Below are positions 40,759 to 60,921 of a stretch of DNA of 64,000 nt, piece after piece. The notes under the pieces were generated by a model. The model was not told the DNA's origin, searched no databases, and worked only from the letters and a program-made list of their open reading frames with translations. Position 1 is the stretch's first letter, and every line of letters begins with the position of its first letter. A program made the translations under genes and the position numbers. Origin of the DNA: a virus; IMG/VR virus record IMGVR_UViG_3300037493_006316, positions 22,224 through 86,223 of that record; one strand, given 5' to 3'.

Positions 40759-41345
40759 CGCCGAGGCCGGGTTGCGCGGAGGGCGCCCTCCATCGCCGCG
40801 GCCTGTTTGAGGACCTCGTCATAGCGCGCTGGGTCGTGCGATACCACGCGCTGCAGCGCGCTCATCGCCTCGTCGTAGGCGCGAAGCATGGCCGCGGGCG
40901 GCATTTCGCCGCGCTCGATCAGCGGCATCATCTCGGCGCGCCGCAGCTCGACGGCGGCCGCCGCCTCGACGTCGTCGCACAGAGCCACCGGCGGCGCGAA
41001 GGCTGCCAGCGAGAGCTGCGCCGACCCGACGCGCACCGGCTCGCAGCCGTCTGGGCGCGGCTCGAGCGCCAGCTGCTCGCCCTTCGGCTCACCCGTGCCG
41101 GCCGGCGGCGCCGGCGGCAGGCGCCGCTCTGTGGGCACCCGGCCGTGCGGCCGCACCGTCACCGCGCCAGCCTCCGTGCGCCGGACGTGACCCCGCACAG
41201 GCACGCCGGGCGCCTTGGGGATGGGCAGCAGCGCCAGCGGGCGCCCAGGGCCCGCCACGCGCACTGCGGCGCCCTCCAGGCCCTGGGGCGTCGCCGGCGC
41301 CGTCGCGGCAGATTCCGCCTTGCGCAGCACGAGGCGGGCCTGCAT
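40755..41345 (-). CDS. Hypothetical protein with clamp-like motifs
   Basis: A 196-residue protein from an ATGA overlap. The first 110 residues are basic, Pro/Gly-rich and probably disordered, containing EQLALEP and AQLSLAAF stretches that resemble bacterial sliding-clamp ligands. The last 80 residues are helical (VELRRAEMMPLIERGEMPP). No family recognised. It overlaps the Mom-like gene by four bases and probably shares its mRNA. Confidence 0.55.
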   Translation of the reverse strand: MQARLVLRKAESAATAPATPQGLEGAAVRVAGPGRPLALLPIPKAPGVPVRGHVRRTEAGAVTVRPHGRVPTERRLPPAPPAGTGEPKGEQLALEPRPDGCEPVRVGSAQLSLAAFAPPVALCDDVEAAAAVELRRAEMMPLIERGEMPPAAMLRAYDEAMSALQRVVSHDPARYDEVLKQAAAMEGALRATRPRR

Positions 41346-43438
41346 CAGTCCTCCACGGTGGCGTAGCCGTAGGCGGCGAACGCGCTCACGCTGCGGTCGG
41401 GAATGGCTTCGACGGCAGCCCACTGCTGCTCGGCGACCTCGACAACGCGAGCGAACTCGGCCTGCGCCGGGGTGTTCTGGTACGTGTCGCCCGTGGCGAG
41501 GATCACCAAGCGGATCTGCTCGCCGCCCACCTCGAGCTTGTCGTTCAGTCCCAGCGAGGCCTTGGTCCCAAACACCTTCCGCGCATGCGCGGTCGGCTCG
41601 TCGGCGCCGAACACCCTGTCGAGCACGTCGCGCGTCGGGCACTCGCCGACCCGCATGGTCAGCGTGCGCGTCGCCGGGCTCCAGTCCATGCCCACGAGGT
41701 GACCCTGCAGGCCCCCGGGCTCGGGCTGCACCCACCCGTCGGACTCGGCCGAGGCCCAGGCGTCGGCAGCAGCCGCCTGCGGGCGGCAGTCCTTGAGCCC
41801 CCGCGCCGCGCCGGCCAGGCGCCGGGCCAGCCGCACGGCCAGGGTCTCACCCTGCTTGCTCGGGCCCAGGAAGCGCAGCCGCGCGATGCAGTCCCGGGCG
41901 GTCTCGGCCGCGGCGAGGTCCTCCATCGCCTTCGTCGCCCACAGGTGCGTGGCGCCCTCCATGCGGAAGGCGGACGCCACAGGGTCGCCGGCCTCGATGT
42001 CGAGCCGGGCGTGGCCCTCGATCCAGGCCGCCGGAACCGACACGGGCTCGTCGCCCAGCAGGGCGCTCACCGCCTCGCGCATGGCCCAGGACGCGGCGCA
42101 CTGCGCGCGCCAGAGGTTCGCGCTGGCCCGGGGGTGCAGGGCATCGTCGAGCGCGCCGGCGCGGGTCGCCGGCAGGGTGTAGGCCATGTCGTGGCTCACC
42201 CAGGCGATGAGCGCCGCGGCGCGCGGGCCGGCGGCGATCTCCATTGCGTCGAGAATGGCCGCAAGGTGCATCATCCCGGCGTGAATGTGCCGCGCACCGC
42301 GGTCGGCCTGCCGCGCGCGCCAGGCTTCGACCTCCTGGTGGAGGATCTTCTGCGCAACGTCGGCGATGATGACCGCCGCAGTGATCGGCGCCACCTGCGC
42401 CATAGCCAGGGCCCGCGCGACCTCGGTCACCGCCTTGGTCGCCCGCCCCGCGTTGGTCTGGTCGATCCAGCCCGCGGTCACCGCCTCTGCGAAGTAGCGG
42501 CCGGCTTGGCTGGCGATGGAGTACCCGGGCTCAATCTCGATGGGGTAGCGGCGCGCCATCTCGGCTTGCACCACGGTCCAGTCGGCCGCGGCGTCCACCC
42601 GCTCGGCCGGGCCCATGGTGGCCCACCCGGGCGGCAGCTTGAACGGGGCATCGGCGAACTCCAACCCGTCGCCCCACGTCGCCGCCGACACCGACTCGGA
42701 CGTGCTCACCGACTCAGAGCTGTCGTCGTCGTCGCCGAGCTCCTCGCCCACCTGCGCCCACTGGTAGGTGCCGTGGGCGGCCTTGACGGACTGGCCGCCG
42801 ACGTCGACCGTCAGGCCCATGCCGCCGACACCGGTGATCGTGCCGGCGCGCTGCTTGCCGTCGACCATGACGAGCACCGTCTCGCCCTGGGCCTTGGCCA
42901 GGCGCTCGGCGATGGCGCTCGGGCGGTCCAGGCGCGGGATCGTGCCCCCGGCGCGCAGCAGGTTGGCCAGCTCTTCGGCCGGCCACGCGGTCAGGCCGTG
43001 GAAGAACCCGCCGGCCGTGTAGGCGCTGCGGTAGAGCGCCTCGGCGTCGGCCGCGCTGGCCACCCCGATCACGACCTTGTCTTCGTCGATGGCCTGCGTT
43101 CCGGGGTGCTTCTGGTGCACCACGAAGGCCATCGGAGCTCCGAGGTCCGGCCCGACGAAGACGTCGACCGGATCGCCGTCGAGCGCGCTAATGGTGCCGG
43201 CCACCTCGCCGTAGTGCGCGGGCATCGTCACCCGCCAGCCGGGGCCGCTGCGGTCCTCGCCCTCGGCCGTCTCGATCAGCAGGGTCAGACCGCGCCAGAG
43301 CAGTGAGCCGACGTAGGGGTGCTCTTCGCGCCCGGGCGTCGGCGCCGGGGGCGGGAGCAGGACCGGGCTCTTGCGTGCGCCGCGGCTGTCGGCGAGCCGC
43401 TGCACCGCGCTTGGATCGAACACGTTGCGGCCCCTCAT
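41345..43438 (-). CDS. Polyvalent protein with inorganic-pyrophosphatase-like (InPase) domain
   Basis: A 697-residue multi-domain protein. Residues about 38-150 (EEHPYVGSLLWRGLTLLIE; HYGEVAGTISALDGDPVDVF; FVVHQKHPGTQ) match the InPase domain of phage polyvalent proteins, which are thought to be packaged and injected. An acidic Ser-rich linker (about 235-250, DDDDSSESVS) is followed by a long helical region. The C-terminus has a small beta domain (IRLVILATGDTYQNTP). Polyvalent proteins typically neutralise host defence early in infection. Function of the later domains is unknown. Confidence 0.65.
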   Translation of the reverse strand: MRGRNVFDPSAVQRLADSRGARKSPVLLPPPAPTPGREEHPYVGSLLWRGLTLLIETAEGEDRSGPGWRVTMPAHYGEVAGTISALDGDPVDVFVGPDLGAPMAFVVHQKHPGTQAIDEDKVVIGVASAADAEALYRSAYTAGGFFHGLTAWPAEELANLLRAGGTIPRLDRPSAIAERLAKAQGETVLVMVDGKQRAGTITGVGGMGLTVDVGGQSVKAAHGTYQWAQVGEELGDDDDSSESVSTSESVSAATWGDGLEFADAPFKLPPGWATMGPAERVDAAADWTVVQAEMARRYPIEIEPGYSIASQAGRYFAEAVTAGWIDQTNAGRATKAVTEVARALAMAQVAPITAAVIIADVAQKILHQEVEAWRARQADRGARHIHAGMMHLAAILDAMEIAAGPRAAALIAWVSHDMAYTLPATRAGALDDALHPRASANLWRAQCAASWAMREAVSALLGDEPVSVPAAWIEGHARLDIEAGDPVASAFRMEGATHLWATKAMEDLAAAETARDCIARLRFLGPSKQGETLAVRLARRLAGAARGLKDCRPQAAAADAWASAESDGWVQPEPGGLQGHLVGMDWSPATRTLTMRVGECPTRDVLDRVFGADEPTAHARKVFGTKASLGLNDKLEVGGEQIRLVILATGDTYQNTPAQAEFARVVEVAEQQWAAVEAIPDRSVSAFAAYGYATVED

Positions 43439-57586: not shown

Positions 57587-59032
57587 CTACCAGCGGTCAC
57601 GGGCGGCGGGCTTGGTCTTCGGGCTCGACTTGGCCGGCGCCTCGCTGTGCGTGTAGTCGATCTCGAGCGCGCGGCCGATGGTCCAGTCGACGGAGAGCTT
57701 CAGTGCCCACCCGGACTCCCCCGAGCGCGCCTTGCGCATGTAGATCCACAGCGGATCCTCTGCGGCATCGTCGTCACGCTGTGAGGGGCGGTCCAAGCAC
57801 ACGACCCAGTCAGCCGCAGCGGCGATCCGGTCGCTGCCCGCAAGGTGATGCAGCTGCGGCGGCCCATCGGCGCCCTGGCGGTTGATCTGCACCAGGCCCA
57901 CCATCGTGCACGTGTGCCGCTTCCCGCGCGCCTTGAGCGCGTCGCTGATCTCGCCGAGCAGCTGGTGCTCGTCGAGGTGACGGTAGGCCGGGCCGCCCTT
58001 GACCAAGCCCAGGTGGTCGATCACGATCAGCTCGGCCGGGTCAAGCGTCTGCCCCACGTCGATGTCGACGATCAGCTCGTCGAACGTCATGCCTGGCTTG
58101 TCGACGATCCGCAGGCGGTTGGTACGCATGGCCTCCAGTGCCGTGTGGAGTTGATCGACGTTCTCGGCGGGTAGCTGCCCGTTGAGGGCCGACGTGTAGG
58201 ACACCTGCGCGTCGTGGCCGGCGATCCGCAACAGCCACTCGAAGTAGGGCACCTCGAGGCTGTAGACCACGACCCGCTTCCCGGCCCGCAAGGCGGCGTG
58301 CACCGCTTGGGCGGCGATCATGGTCTTGCCCACCCCGGTCCGGGCCGCAATGACCCCGAAGTGCGTCGGTCGCCAGGGGTTGCGGCGGCGCCAGGTCAAC
58401 CACGGGACCGGCAGCCCGACCTCGGTGCCGCTGAGTCGGTCGGTGAAAGCCGCCTCAATGAGTCGCCGCGCTTCGTCGATCTGCTCGTCGAGCAGCAGGC
58501 CCTTGGTAGCCGACGACTGCGACAACGCCGCGGTGAAGATCGCCCGAGCGCTCTCGCCATCGCCATCGGCCGCCGCCGCGGCGGCCAGCTTCCCGGCCGC
58601 AGCCATGCGGCGGAACTCGGCAGCCGACTGGATCCGGCGGATGAGGTAGCCCAGCGACTGCATGCTGGGCGCGGCCACGCGGCTCAGCTCGTGGAAGTAG
58701 CCGTGGCCGCCGACCTTCTCGAAGAAGTCCTGACCGCAGCCGAGCGCGATGGCCATCTCGTCGAACGGCTCGCCGCGCATGCGGCGCCGCTCGATCTCGA
58801 CCGCCAGCACCCGGTGGCCGTCGCGGTGCCAGTCGTCGGGGTCGGGCATGCGCGGCAGGCGCGCGCCGTCCGCGGCGTCGAGCATGGGGGCGAGGAACGC
58901 CCCCAGCACGGACCTTTCGGCATCGACGGTGCGGGTGTGCACCGCGGCGTCGGGGTCGACTTGCACCGTGCGGGAGGCTGCGCTGATCAGCTCCCGGGGG
59001 GCCTTGGGTCGGCCCTGTGTGCGCGGGCTCAT
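57587..59032 (-). CDS. DnaB-like replicative helicase
   Basis: A 481-residue RecA-fold hexameric helicase. Walker A AARTGVGKT, Walker B ELIVIDHLGLV, the LVQINRQG sensor-like strand and the arginine-containing SDRIAAAADWV end are typical of DnaB. The N-terminal domain (ERSVLGAFLAP...) matches the DnaB collar. It unwinds DNA at the fork and is likely loaded by the initiator next door (ATGA overlap), as in lambda O/P-like modules. It is not a DinG-type helicase. Confidence 0.88.
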   Translation of the reverse strand: MSPRTQGRPKAPRELISAASRTVQVDPDAAVHTRTVDAERSVLGAFLAPMLDAADGARLPRMPDPDDWHRDGHRVLAVEIERRRMRGEPFDEMAIALGCGQDFFEKVGGHGYFHELSRVAAPSMQSLGYLIRRIQSAAEFRRMAAAGKLAAAAAADGDGESARAIFTAALSQSSATKGLLLDEQIDEARRLIEAAFTDRLSGTEVGLPVPWLTWRRRNPWRPTHFGVIAARTGVGKTMIAAQAVHAALRAGKRVVVYSLEVPYFEWLLRIAGHDAQVSYTSALNGQLPAENVDQLHTALEAMRTNRLRIVDKPGMTFDELIVDIDVGQTLDPAELIVIDHLGLVKGGPAYRHLDEHQLLGEISDALKARGKRHTCTMVGLVQINRQGADGPPQLHHLAGSDRIAAAADWVVCLDRPSQRDDDAAEDPLWIYMRKARSGESGWALKLSVDWTIGRALEIDYTHSEAPAKSSPKTKPAARDRW

Positions 59033-60645
59033 CGGGCCGCCTGTGCCGACTGATCGGCCTCATCGTCGAACCAGGCGGCCACGAAGGCGGCCTCCTGCGC
59101 CGGCGTCGGGGCGAACGGATCGAAGGCCACCCCAGCGGCCTTGGCGAAGACCTGGGCCACTCGCAGGCGCTGAGCGGTGCCATCGGGCGTGGCCGCCGCT
59201 TGGGCCCACTCCGACCGCGCCTGCCTGCGGACCTCCAGGCCGGCGCTGGCCGGCACCCGCCGGCGGGCGGACAGGTACGAGGTCCACGCCTCGAGGCTCG
59301 CGCTGTCGTGGCCCAGGGGCCGACCGCCGGTGTCCCAGGCCTGTGCGGCCTCGAGGTTGCGGTCGACCTCGCGGAGGATCACCACGAAGTCGGGCGCTTG
59401 GCCGATGGGCTGCGGGTACTGAGGCGAGGTCGCCATCCATCGCCGGTTGCTCGGCGAACGCAGCATGAACGCGTGGACGAGGTCAATCTCGTGCCCCCGC
59501 GCCACAAGCTCCTGGGCCAGATCGGCCCGGGCGGCGAGGGCCTCGGCGGCGGTGACCGCTGCCGACAGGCCCGACTGCCGGGAGTCCAGGCGCAGCAGCG
59601 CCTTGGCCATGGCCGCCACGCTGGCCTGCGCGAACGACTCGCGCGGGGTGCCGCCCATGCCGAACACTGCGCGCCGGCGGCTGTCCAGGCGGGCCAGCAC
59701 TGTCTCGGCGCAGGCCACCACCGCGGCCTCCACCTCGGCCCGCGGCGCCCGCACAGCGCGACTGCGCGCTGGCAGGGTCTGCCCCCCTGCCACCAGCGTG
59801 AGCACCGGCCGGCAGGGGGCCTCGACGACCTCAAGCGCCTCTGGCGCTGGCGCGGCCGCCACGGGCTCTGCGGGCTCCTCCAGGCGCGCCTGGGCCTCGT
59901 GTGGGGCCTCCGGCTGGGCCTGCGCCATCGGCTGTGCCGTCAGGGCCGCCAAGGCAGCCTGCAGGCTGCCCAGCTGGGCCTCCAGGCGCCTGCGGGCCTC
60001 GCGCTCCGCTTCAAGCTCTGCCCTCAAGCTCTCGACGATGTCCATCAGCCCTCCGGCCGCGTCAGCGGCGGGGGTGGCGCCGACAGGCGCAGGGGGCGTA
60101 GCCCCCTTTGGGCCCCGGCCCCGAGCTCTATGTGTGAGGGGTTCTTGGAGCGGGTTGTATGGAGCGGGTTCGGTGCCACCGTGTGGCATACCCCCCTGCC
60201 ACCGCGTGGCAGCCCCCCTGCCATCCTGTGGCATACCCCCTGCCACGGGGCCGGGCTCCTCTGCCACCGCGCGGCAGGGGTCAGCGACCGTGGCAGGGGT
60301 GCCACGGCGTGGCAGGGTCAGGCGCTCGGCGCGCAGCTGGGCCACGCACTGCAGGCGGTCGGCGTCGAGATCGACCGTGCACCGCAGCGGCTCCCCGCGA
60401 CGCTGCGGCCGCTTGAGGAGCACGCCAGCCTCGAAGAGCAGGCGGCGCTCGGCCTGCACCTTGCCGCGGCTGGCCCGCGCGGCCTCGCACAGGTGCTTCA
60501 GGCCGGGCCAGGACTCACCCTGCTCTACTGGCAGGGTCGACGACTGGCAGGCGATGTACGCCCGCATGATCGCCACCTGAACCAAGCTCAGCGGGGCCCT
60601 GTCGAGCAGGTCGTAGGCCTGCAGCCGGGTCAGGGGCGCGCTCAA
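59029..60645 (-). CDS. Replication initiator protein with internal origin iterons
   Basis: About 538 residues from a TTG at 60645 with GGGTGG upstream. The frame stays open to an ATG at 60756, but that would read through the terminator at 60669-60692. The N-terminal 100 residues look like a winged-helix domain (AYDLLDRAPLSLVQVAIMRAY; LKHLCEAARASRGKVQAERR). Then a low-complexity linker encoded by the iteron array, a coiled coil (LRAELEAEREARRRLEAQL) and a helical C-terminal region. By analogy with lambda O it would bind the iterons and load the helicase. Start is uncertain. Confidence 0.7.
   Translation of the reverse strand: MSAPLTRLQAYDLLDRAPLSLVQVAIMRAYIACQSSTLPVEQGESWPGLKHLCEAARASRGKVQAERRLLFEAGVLLKRPQRRGEPLRCTVDLDADRLQCVAQLRAERLTLPRRGTPATVADPCRAVAEEPGPVAGGMPQDGRGAATRWQGGMPHGGTEPAPYNPLQEPLTHRARGRGPKGATPPAPVGATPAADAAGGLMDIVESLRAELEAEREARRRLEAQLGSLQAALAALTAQPMAQAQPEAPHEAQARLEEPAEPVAAAPAPEALEVVEAPCRPVLTLVAGGQTLPARSRAVRAPRAEVEAAVVACAETVLARLDSRRRAVFGMGGTPRESFAQASVAAMAKALLRLDSRQSGLSAAVTAAEALAARADLAQELVARGHEIDLVHAFMLRSPSNRRWMATSPQYPQPIGQAPDFVVILREVDRNLEAAQAWDTGGRPLGHDSASLEAWTSYLSARRRVPASAGLEVRRQARSEWAQAAATPDGTAQRLRVAQVFAKAAGVAFDPFAPTPAQEAAFVAAWFDDEADQSAQAAR
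60147..60173 (-). repeat. Short direct repeats beside the iterons
   Basis: GGAGCGGGTT occurs at 60147-60156 and again at 60161-60170, in a stretch with more A and T than usual next to the iteron array. It could be part of an unwinding region of the origin. Confidence 0.35.
60174..60314. other. Iteron array, candidate replication origin
   Basis: Fifteen-base palindromes TGCCAC-N3-GTGGCA start at 60174, 60197, 60219 (one changed base in the left arm), 60262 (one changed in the right arm) and 60300. A left-half site starts at 60241 and a right-half site at 60281. Spacing is 23, 22, 22, 21, 19 and 19 bases, about two helical turns and not a multiple of three. They lie inside the initiator gene, as lambda iterons lie in gene O. 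C-rich spacers (ACCCCCC, GCCCCCC) separate the first copies. Confidence 0.75.
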
Positions 60646-60668
60646 AGCGCACCACCCGCGCTGGGCGC

Positions 60669-60692
60669 AAAAAAACCGGGCACAGCCCGGTT
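60669..60692 (-). terminator. Strong Rho-independent terminator in the initiator leader
   Basis: On the minus strand AACCGGGC, loop TGT, GCCCGGTT, then a run of T's (seven T in all at 60675-60669). It is the clearest intrinsic terminator in the window. It stands between the promoter at 60885 and the initiator start at 60645, so it could attenuate initiator expression. Confidence 0.88.
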
Positions 60693-60884
60693 GCGTGCAA
60701 AACTCTGGGGCGTCTGCCCCGTCTGTGATGGCATTGACTTTCCTTGGTGAAGTCACTCGGAAAGTGCGAGGGCACCGCGGTTTCGTCTGGCCGGACTACA
60801 CCGCGGTTGCCGCTTCTGCGGCCGCCCTCGACACCCACCAAGGACACAATGGACACCGCCAACCTCATGCCGGTCGGCACGACA

Positions 60885-60913
60885 AGGCTACCACCAGCGC
60901 CCCCGCGGCGCAA
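60885..60913 (-). promoter_or_regulatory. Promoter for the replication operon
   Basis: On the minus strand TTGCGC (60913-60908), 17 bases, TAGCCT (60890-60885). The -10 is identical to that at 2233-2238. It starts nine bases after the nrdB stop. The leader to the initiator start is about 230 bases and contains the terminator at 60669-60692. Bases 60693-60884 hold no gene I can support. Confidence 0.65.
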
Positions 60914-60921
60914 GCGGCCGG

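Follow-up and report, generated by a model that had tools for sequence, protein, structure and literature searches.

The replication origin of the phage described here very probably lies within the coding sequence of its own initiator, in an array of hyphenated palindromes arranged in the manner of lambda and P22. Independent lines converge in support of this assignment, namely the winged helix of an initiator family in the encoded protein, a scan for the palindromes that was blind to protein information, preservation of the palindromes regardless of reading frame, and a position within the gene like that in lambda and P22. Among the features expected of such an intragenic origin, the gene carries repeated sites which, to judge from their sequence, appear to be of the initiator-binding type, and an easily melted region, modest in AT, adjoins these iterons on the 3' side of the gene; the next gene codes for a helicase (DnaB-type, 4-nt overlap). 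The coordinates of all features are compiled in Table 1.

The window, a stretch of 64,000 nucleotides, comprises bases 22,224-86,223 of an 86,223-bp viral record (IMGVR_UViG_3300037493_006316). The structural and packaging genes recognised in it, those of a tail sheath (PHROG match, E=1e-10), a major head protein, a portal and a terminase, identify the phage as contractile-tailed. With a GC content of 71.6% in the window, a third-position GC of ~93% in the genome, and a helicase matching Pfam DnaB_C (E=1.5e-30) and phrog_19 (6e-53), it agrees with the earlier note's description of a contractile-tailed, very GC-rich phage with its own DnaB-like helicase. In IMG/VR, neither the complete initiator nor its winged helix found a homologue, and the same was true of the helicase and of the major capsid protein; tblastn of the initiator against phages and plasmids likewise gave no match. 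Relatives of NrdB were found without the replication module of the window, relatives of the terminase (phages of ~84-96 kb, e.g. Bordetella PHB04 and Aeromonas ST4) carry another annotated replication set, and the sequence of the sole close terminase relative found (75%) is too short to include the initiator. Elsewhere in the window, a large protein encoded at 41345-43438 (- strand) has an N-terminal InPase (inorganic pyrophosphatase) Pfam domain as well as PHROG matches to DarB-like antirestriction and minor head proteins. A DUF5131 protein (L002 9907-10824, - strand, E=1.8e-81) adjoins a C-5 cytosine DNA methylase gene (L002 10845-12485).

Table 1. Features of the initiator gene and its surroundings (positions in the window; assignments of function are predictions).
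Feature	Position	Strand	Details
DnaB-type replicative helicase gene	57587..59032	-	ATG overlaps initiator stop by 4 nt
O-like replication initiator gene (predicted)	59029..60645	-	538 aa from TTG at 60645
Least stable 50 bp of initiator gene, on the gene's 3' side of the iterons	60121..60170	.	nearest-neighbour profile
Tandem AACCC repeats (GAACCCGCTCCA / CAACCCGCTCCA / GAACCCCTCACA, coding strand), proposed unwinding element	60133..60171	-	
Iteron, perfect palindrome TGCCACCGTGTGGCA	60174..60188	.	
Iteron, perfect palindrome TGCCACCGCGTGGCA	60197..60211	.	
Iteron, one mismatch TGCCATCCTGTGGCA	60219..60233	.	
Half-site in register	60241..60255	.	left arm TGCCAC only
Iteron, one mismatch TGCCACCGCGCGGCA	60262..60276	.	
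Half-site in register	60281..60295	.	right arm only, GTGGCA at 60290
Iteron, perfect palindrome TGCCACGGCGTGGCA	60300..60314	.	
Winged-helix DNA-binding domain, coding part (approximate limits)	60370..60645	-	hhalign, profile search, AF2
Intrinsic terminator, between ribonucleotide reductase small-subunit gene and initiator gene	60674..60692	-	

Of the seven palindromic units that the earlier note had proposed for 60174-60314, the coordinates and the seven positions in periodic register stand, whereas the palindromes of the form TGCCAC-N3-GTGGCA number five, three of them perfect, and the other two positions hold half-sites. Successive units are spaced 23, 22, 22, 21, 19 and 19 bp, exactly within the 19-23 bases previously given; the mean is 21.0 bp, and strict helical phasing of the iterons is not claimed, since the individual steps differ, ranging from 19 to 23 bp. 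From left to right the seven units fall into codon phases 1,2,1,0,0,2,1, so that all three phases are used and the encoded peptides (MPHGGT, AATRWQ, MPQDGR, PGPVAG, CRAVAE, PATVAD and LPRRGT) are unrelated; the linker that the array encodes is rich in G, P, A and R. When the amino-acid sequence was kept fixed and codons were drawn from the phage's own usage in 20,000 trials, the observed count of units or of half-sites was reached in none. Elsewhere in the 86,223-bp record there is no match to TGCCAC-N3-GTGGCA with ≤1 mismatch, and no other short-repeat cluster of the record is as strong as the array, which is also the top-scoring tandem array of the window.

The gene that hosts the array appears to code for a divergent winged-helix O-like initiator of the phrog_1032 / HTH_36 type, an assignment supported by comparisons of its N-terminal part. 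Taken without the array-encoded linker, the winged-helix part gave four PHROG matches, all of them to replication-initiator families (phrog_4617, 1032, 8540 and 391), weak singly (E 0.0096 to 0.26) and consistent as a set. A profile of 22 O-like initiators, trimmed before the linker, matched the window ORF and no other at E<1 among the 785 ORFs of the record (E=0.0006), and hhalign aligned the initiator with the family wHTH profile at a probability of 94% (E 1.4e-7, 34% identity over 44 columns). The AF2 model of the protein, of moderate confidence (mean pLDDT 67), shows a winged-helix-like order of elements. A Foldseek search with this model gave no significant match, a phage 'replication protein O' ranking third among the viral models (E=0.13). 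Against Pfam the ORF had no significant match, with a sub-threshold coiled coil and no HTH_36 listed at E<0.1, and no convincing match, nor any initiator family, was obtained for the 380 C-terminal aa beyond the linker. Homology of the protein is weak beyond the 44 winged-helix residues; similarity to the family does not extend over the full length, and the protein is therefore filed as a divergent member on its N-terminal winged helix and origin layout only, the iteron array lying, as in the family, in the linker directly after the winged helix.

The open frame of the initiator reaches upstream to a GTG at 60756 (59029-60756), and the TTG at 60645 is the probable start, since it yields a protein beginning with MS, as in nearly all relatives, and the upstream terminator then falls outside the gene. 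This terminator is strong and lies ~30 nt upstream of the probable TTG. A sigma-70 promoter scan of the initiator/terminator region found none, and Rfam gave no match over 58.5-62.5 kb. The intergenic region upstream of the initiator (60700-60920) contains two CACCGCGGTT repeats and a 17-bp inverted repeat (60774-60807). At the opposite end of the gene, the junction with the helicase gene reads GATGAGC.

When 2.9 million viral contigs were scanned for a pair of neighbouring TGCCAY-N3-RTGGCA units, with no protein information used, 61 contigs matched. Wherever the gene was read, its product belonged to phrog_1032 or sister families of winged-helix initiators, and the array was located just after the winged helix. 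The iterons of 60 of the 61 contigs have C/G-run spacers and a spacing of 22-24 bp, and a CC-GAACC junction follows the array in the same proportion (58 computed, L046 and L070 by eye); the one exception among the 61, L072, is unrelated. In these contigs the two selecting units are conserved by construction, gene context and the other two units being unselected; near-duplicates abound among the contigs, the arrays amounting to 37 distinct sequences, and as many relatives fall in few close groups, they are not independent. The covariation of the palindromes that the earlier note had put forward as a check was found in the unselected units, whose arms show the compensatory changes TGCAAT-GAC-GTTGCA and TGTCAT-CAG-ATGACA. 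Furthermore, genes of the L069 type have a spacing of 22 bp versus 24 bp, and the last palindrome is therefore read in another frame, encoding CATRWH versus PPDGTR with the palindrome intact. Relatives that keep the peptide and lose the palindromes had been named beforehand as the observation to speak against an origin; what is seen is the opposite, the palindromes being kept while frame and peptide change.

A set of 19 O-like initiator genes was drawn from enterobacterial, Salmonella, Vibrio, Pseudomonas, Aeromonas, Psychrobacter, Stenotrophomonas, Rhodobacter, Arthrobacter and Bifidobacterium phages. In every one of them the densest short-repeat window lies at ~nt 240-510, directly after the winged helix, and in 17 (the exceptions being SI5 and D65) the repeat density is above that of every codon shuffle. 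The iteron sequence itself varies by subgroup, with TGTCA/TGACA in several Vibrio and Bifidobacterium phages and a GCAGnnnTGC type in MD8 and AsaM-56. The sequences of the units, their significance, the conservation of position and motif across the family, and the frame-independent preservation are established. The array is not a by-product of the peptide, and selection acts on the DNA, as the earlier note had argued, given the use of all three codon phases, the outcome of the synonymous resampling and the survival of the palindromes across frame shifts in relatives.

Genome contigs retrieved by the same pattern carry unrelated repeats. In Bacteroidales contigs (L105, L106, L108, L109, L112-L114, L117-L119, L122, L125, L127, L130, L132 and L135) there are arrays of TGCCATACTATGGCA-like palindromes with exactly 23-bp spacing and 2-5 units, at several places per genome and mostly outside obvious genes, which have the appearance of a REP-type element scattered through the genomes and without relation to the phage origin. 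Akkermansia contigs (L104, L107, L111 and L131) contain pairs of TGCCAC-N3-GTGGCA-like palindromes 22 bp apart, within a larger ATGCAAATT...AATTTGCAT inverted repeat.

Adjacent to the iterons, the AACC-repeat stretch is likely to be the unwinding element. It coincides with the least stable region of the gene, although this proposed melting region is, at ~42% AT, modest in absolute terms. Its three AACCC copies are spaced 14 and 13 bp and occupy two reading frames; three copies were reached in 9 of 20,000 synonymous resamplings, and 8 of the 15 codons of the stretch end in A/T, which none of the 20,000 resamplings matched. On the coding strand, the last iteron is followed by GGCACCAGAACCAGTCA...GAACCAGTCA...GAACC in enterobacterial genes and by GGCACCGAACCCGCTCCATACAACCCGCTCCAAGAACCCC in the window. 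About 16 of 22 genes, several of them closely related, have three or more AACC copies after the array, in mixed frames; AsaM-56, two Vibrio phages, mEp044 and the Bifidobacterium phage have fewer than three, and in RcMeacham the AACC copies belong to the array itself.

The persistence of AACC repeats in mixed frames from enterobacterial to Arthrobacter phages, with a GC-rich version, AACCCGCTCC, in the window phage, raises the possibility, here regarded as a tentative one, that they act as a sequence-specific element for unwinding or for binding of single-stranded DNA by the initiator, and are more than AT-rich filler. Each group of O-like initiators (L136-L153) has its own tandem short repeat directly after the iterons, GAACCAGTCA in most, and the lambda and P22 origins (L154, L155) have ACAAAAGACA-like repeats directly after theirs. 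If the proposal were true, the AACC element would correspond, in a phage, to the ordered repeats found where bacterial origins unwind, and an AACC-type element would co-evolve with each initiator type, the repeats of lambda and P22 occupying the same place.

From these features the following course of initiation is inferred, from protein binding and melting to the loading of the helicase and the activity of the origin. Dimers of the initiator would bind the TGCCAC-N3-GTGGCA palindromes via the N-terminal winged helix, and because the sites lie about two helical turns apart on average, the iteron-bound dimers could assemble into a nucleoprotein array like the O-some of lambda. Such an array would strain the adjacent, relatively AT-rich AACC-repeat stretch (60121-60171) until it opens, whereupon the DnaB-type helicase that the phage itself encodes in the next, overlapping gene would be loaded at the opened stretch. 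The protein linker may be free to vary because its DNA is, as proposed, under selection as a binding array. The GC-skew peak anticipated at the array in the earlier note is absent; cumulative GC skew climbs from one end of the record to the other with no turning point at the array, and is for this reason uninformative with regard to the origin. Transcription is mostly one-directional.

Other functions of the array have to be weighed. The palindromes might form an intragenic operator cluster, through which the winged-helix protein or another phage regulator controls transcription of the replication operon, no origin being present. Autoregulation of initiators is common, a winged-helix protein could serve as regulator, and the sites do lie inside the operon and near a terminator. 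Operators, however, are normally found near a promoter, the record contains no further copy of the site, the upstream intergenic region included, and relatives keep both the AACC repeats right after the array and a position as in the annotated lambda and P22 origins; an operator cluster is accordingly considered unlikely. Tandem dyads are also found in partition, packaging and incompatibility sites, one of which could happen to sit in the initiator gene. This is improbable, as the array accompanies initiator genes of this family in unrelated phages, the genes scanned include no recognisable ParA/ParB, and the large terminase gene is ~6 kb off. The dispersed TGCCATACTATGGCA arrays of Bacteroidales genomes, with their 23-bp spacing, could be taken to suggest that a mobile array of REP-like palindromes has inserted into the gene, but the array occurs as a single copy in the record and its position in relatives is fixed, right after the winged helix, which makes an insertion very improbable. 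That the repeats reflect a low-complexity repetitive peptide, by protein-level selection or replication slippage, would suit the G-, P-, A- and R-rich linker but is scarcely credible in view of the unrelated peptides in all three frames, the resampling result (0/20,000) and the palindromes kept across frame changes in relatives.

Read as a replication origin, the array belongs to a known kind, the intragenic origin of lambda/P22 type, with no earlier record found for this lineage; a literature search with the motif sequences gave nothing relevant among the matches listed. It would extend origins of this type to a deeply divergent, contractile-tailed phage with 72% GC that is represented solely by an entry in a sequence collection, and it supplies an exact predicted origin position for this phage. 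The iteron identity (TGCCAC-N3-GTGGCA) and the adjoining AACC repeats persist where protein similarity is almost gone, and a DNA motif that outlasts protein similarity can therefore be used to locate origins and to identify initiators in phages that are hard to annotate.

The iterons are closest to those of the phrog_1032 / HTH_36-type enterobacterial initiators, such as the 'primosomal protein I' of Klebsiella phage ST15-VIM1phi2.1, with which the window has the consensus TGCCAY-N3-RTGGCA in common, together with C/G-run spacers, the location of the array in the linker after the winged helix, the GGCACC(A)GAACC junction and the mixed-frame tandem AACC repeats. On the other hand, proteins of this type comprise ~240-275 aa and are found in phages of ~50% GC, with up to four units, several of them degenerate, in contrast to the 538 aa and the five palindromes plus two half-sites in a contractile-tailed phage of 72% GC. 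The next gene in ST15-VIM1phi2.1 codes for a 258-aa 'replication protein', whereas that of the window codes for a DnaB-type helicase. The initiator of Stenotrophomonas phage BUCT708 has a related iteron (TGCCGCC...) and GAACCAGTCA repeats, and its next gene is annotated as a replicative DNA helicase, which shares 27% identity with the window helicase across 197 aa; its initiator gene differs in a GC content of 52% and a C-terminal half unlike that of the window.

The earlier note had drawn the parallel to lambda, which holds for the layout of an intragenic origin and for its position in the gene. In lambda, the iterons are 18-bp inverted repeats, each bound by two O proteins, beside a 39-bp unwinding region of high AT (PMC6022878), and both the iterons and the AT-rich tract are placed centrally within gene O (PMC7466680). 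Hyphenated-palindrome iterons inside the initiator gene, spaced 20-24 bp and with an AT-rich element on their 3' side (PMC6022878, PMC7466680), are thus common to both phages, the lambda iterons occupying nt 349-433 of gene O with spacings of 20, 24 and 23. The iteron sequences differ, however, lambda employs a helicase loader (P) with host DnaB, and lambda O gave no match to the family profile that finds the window ORF; by analogy, the window initiator probably works like lambda O, without being classed as its orthologue. P22 offers the closer parallel, having an initiator and a DnaB-like helicase of its own (genes 18 and 12), which overlap by 4 nt as in the window. The annotated P22 origin lies inside the initiator gene at nt 353-497 of gene 18, nearly the same position as the array of the window, at nt 332-472 counted from the inferred TTG start. 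The iteron sequence of P22 is different, and in a 3-sequence search with the family winged-helix profile its initiator scored E 0.023 versus 1.9e-6 for the window protein. In the polarity from iterons over the melting region to the helicase gene, it is P22 that the window matches most closely.
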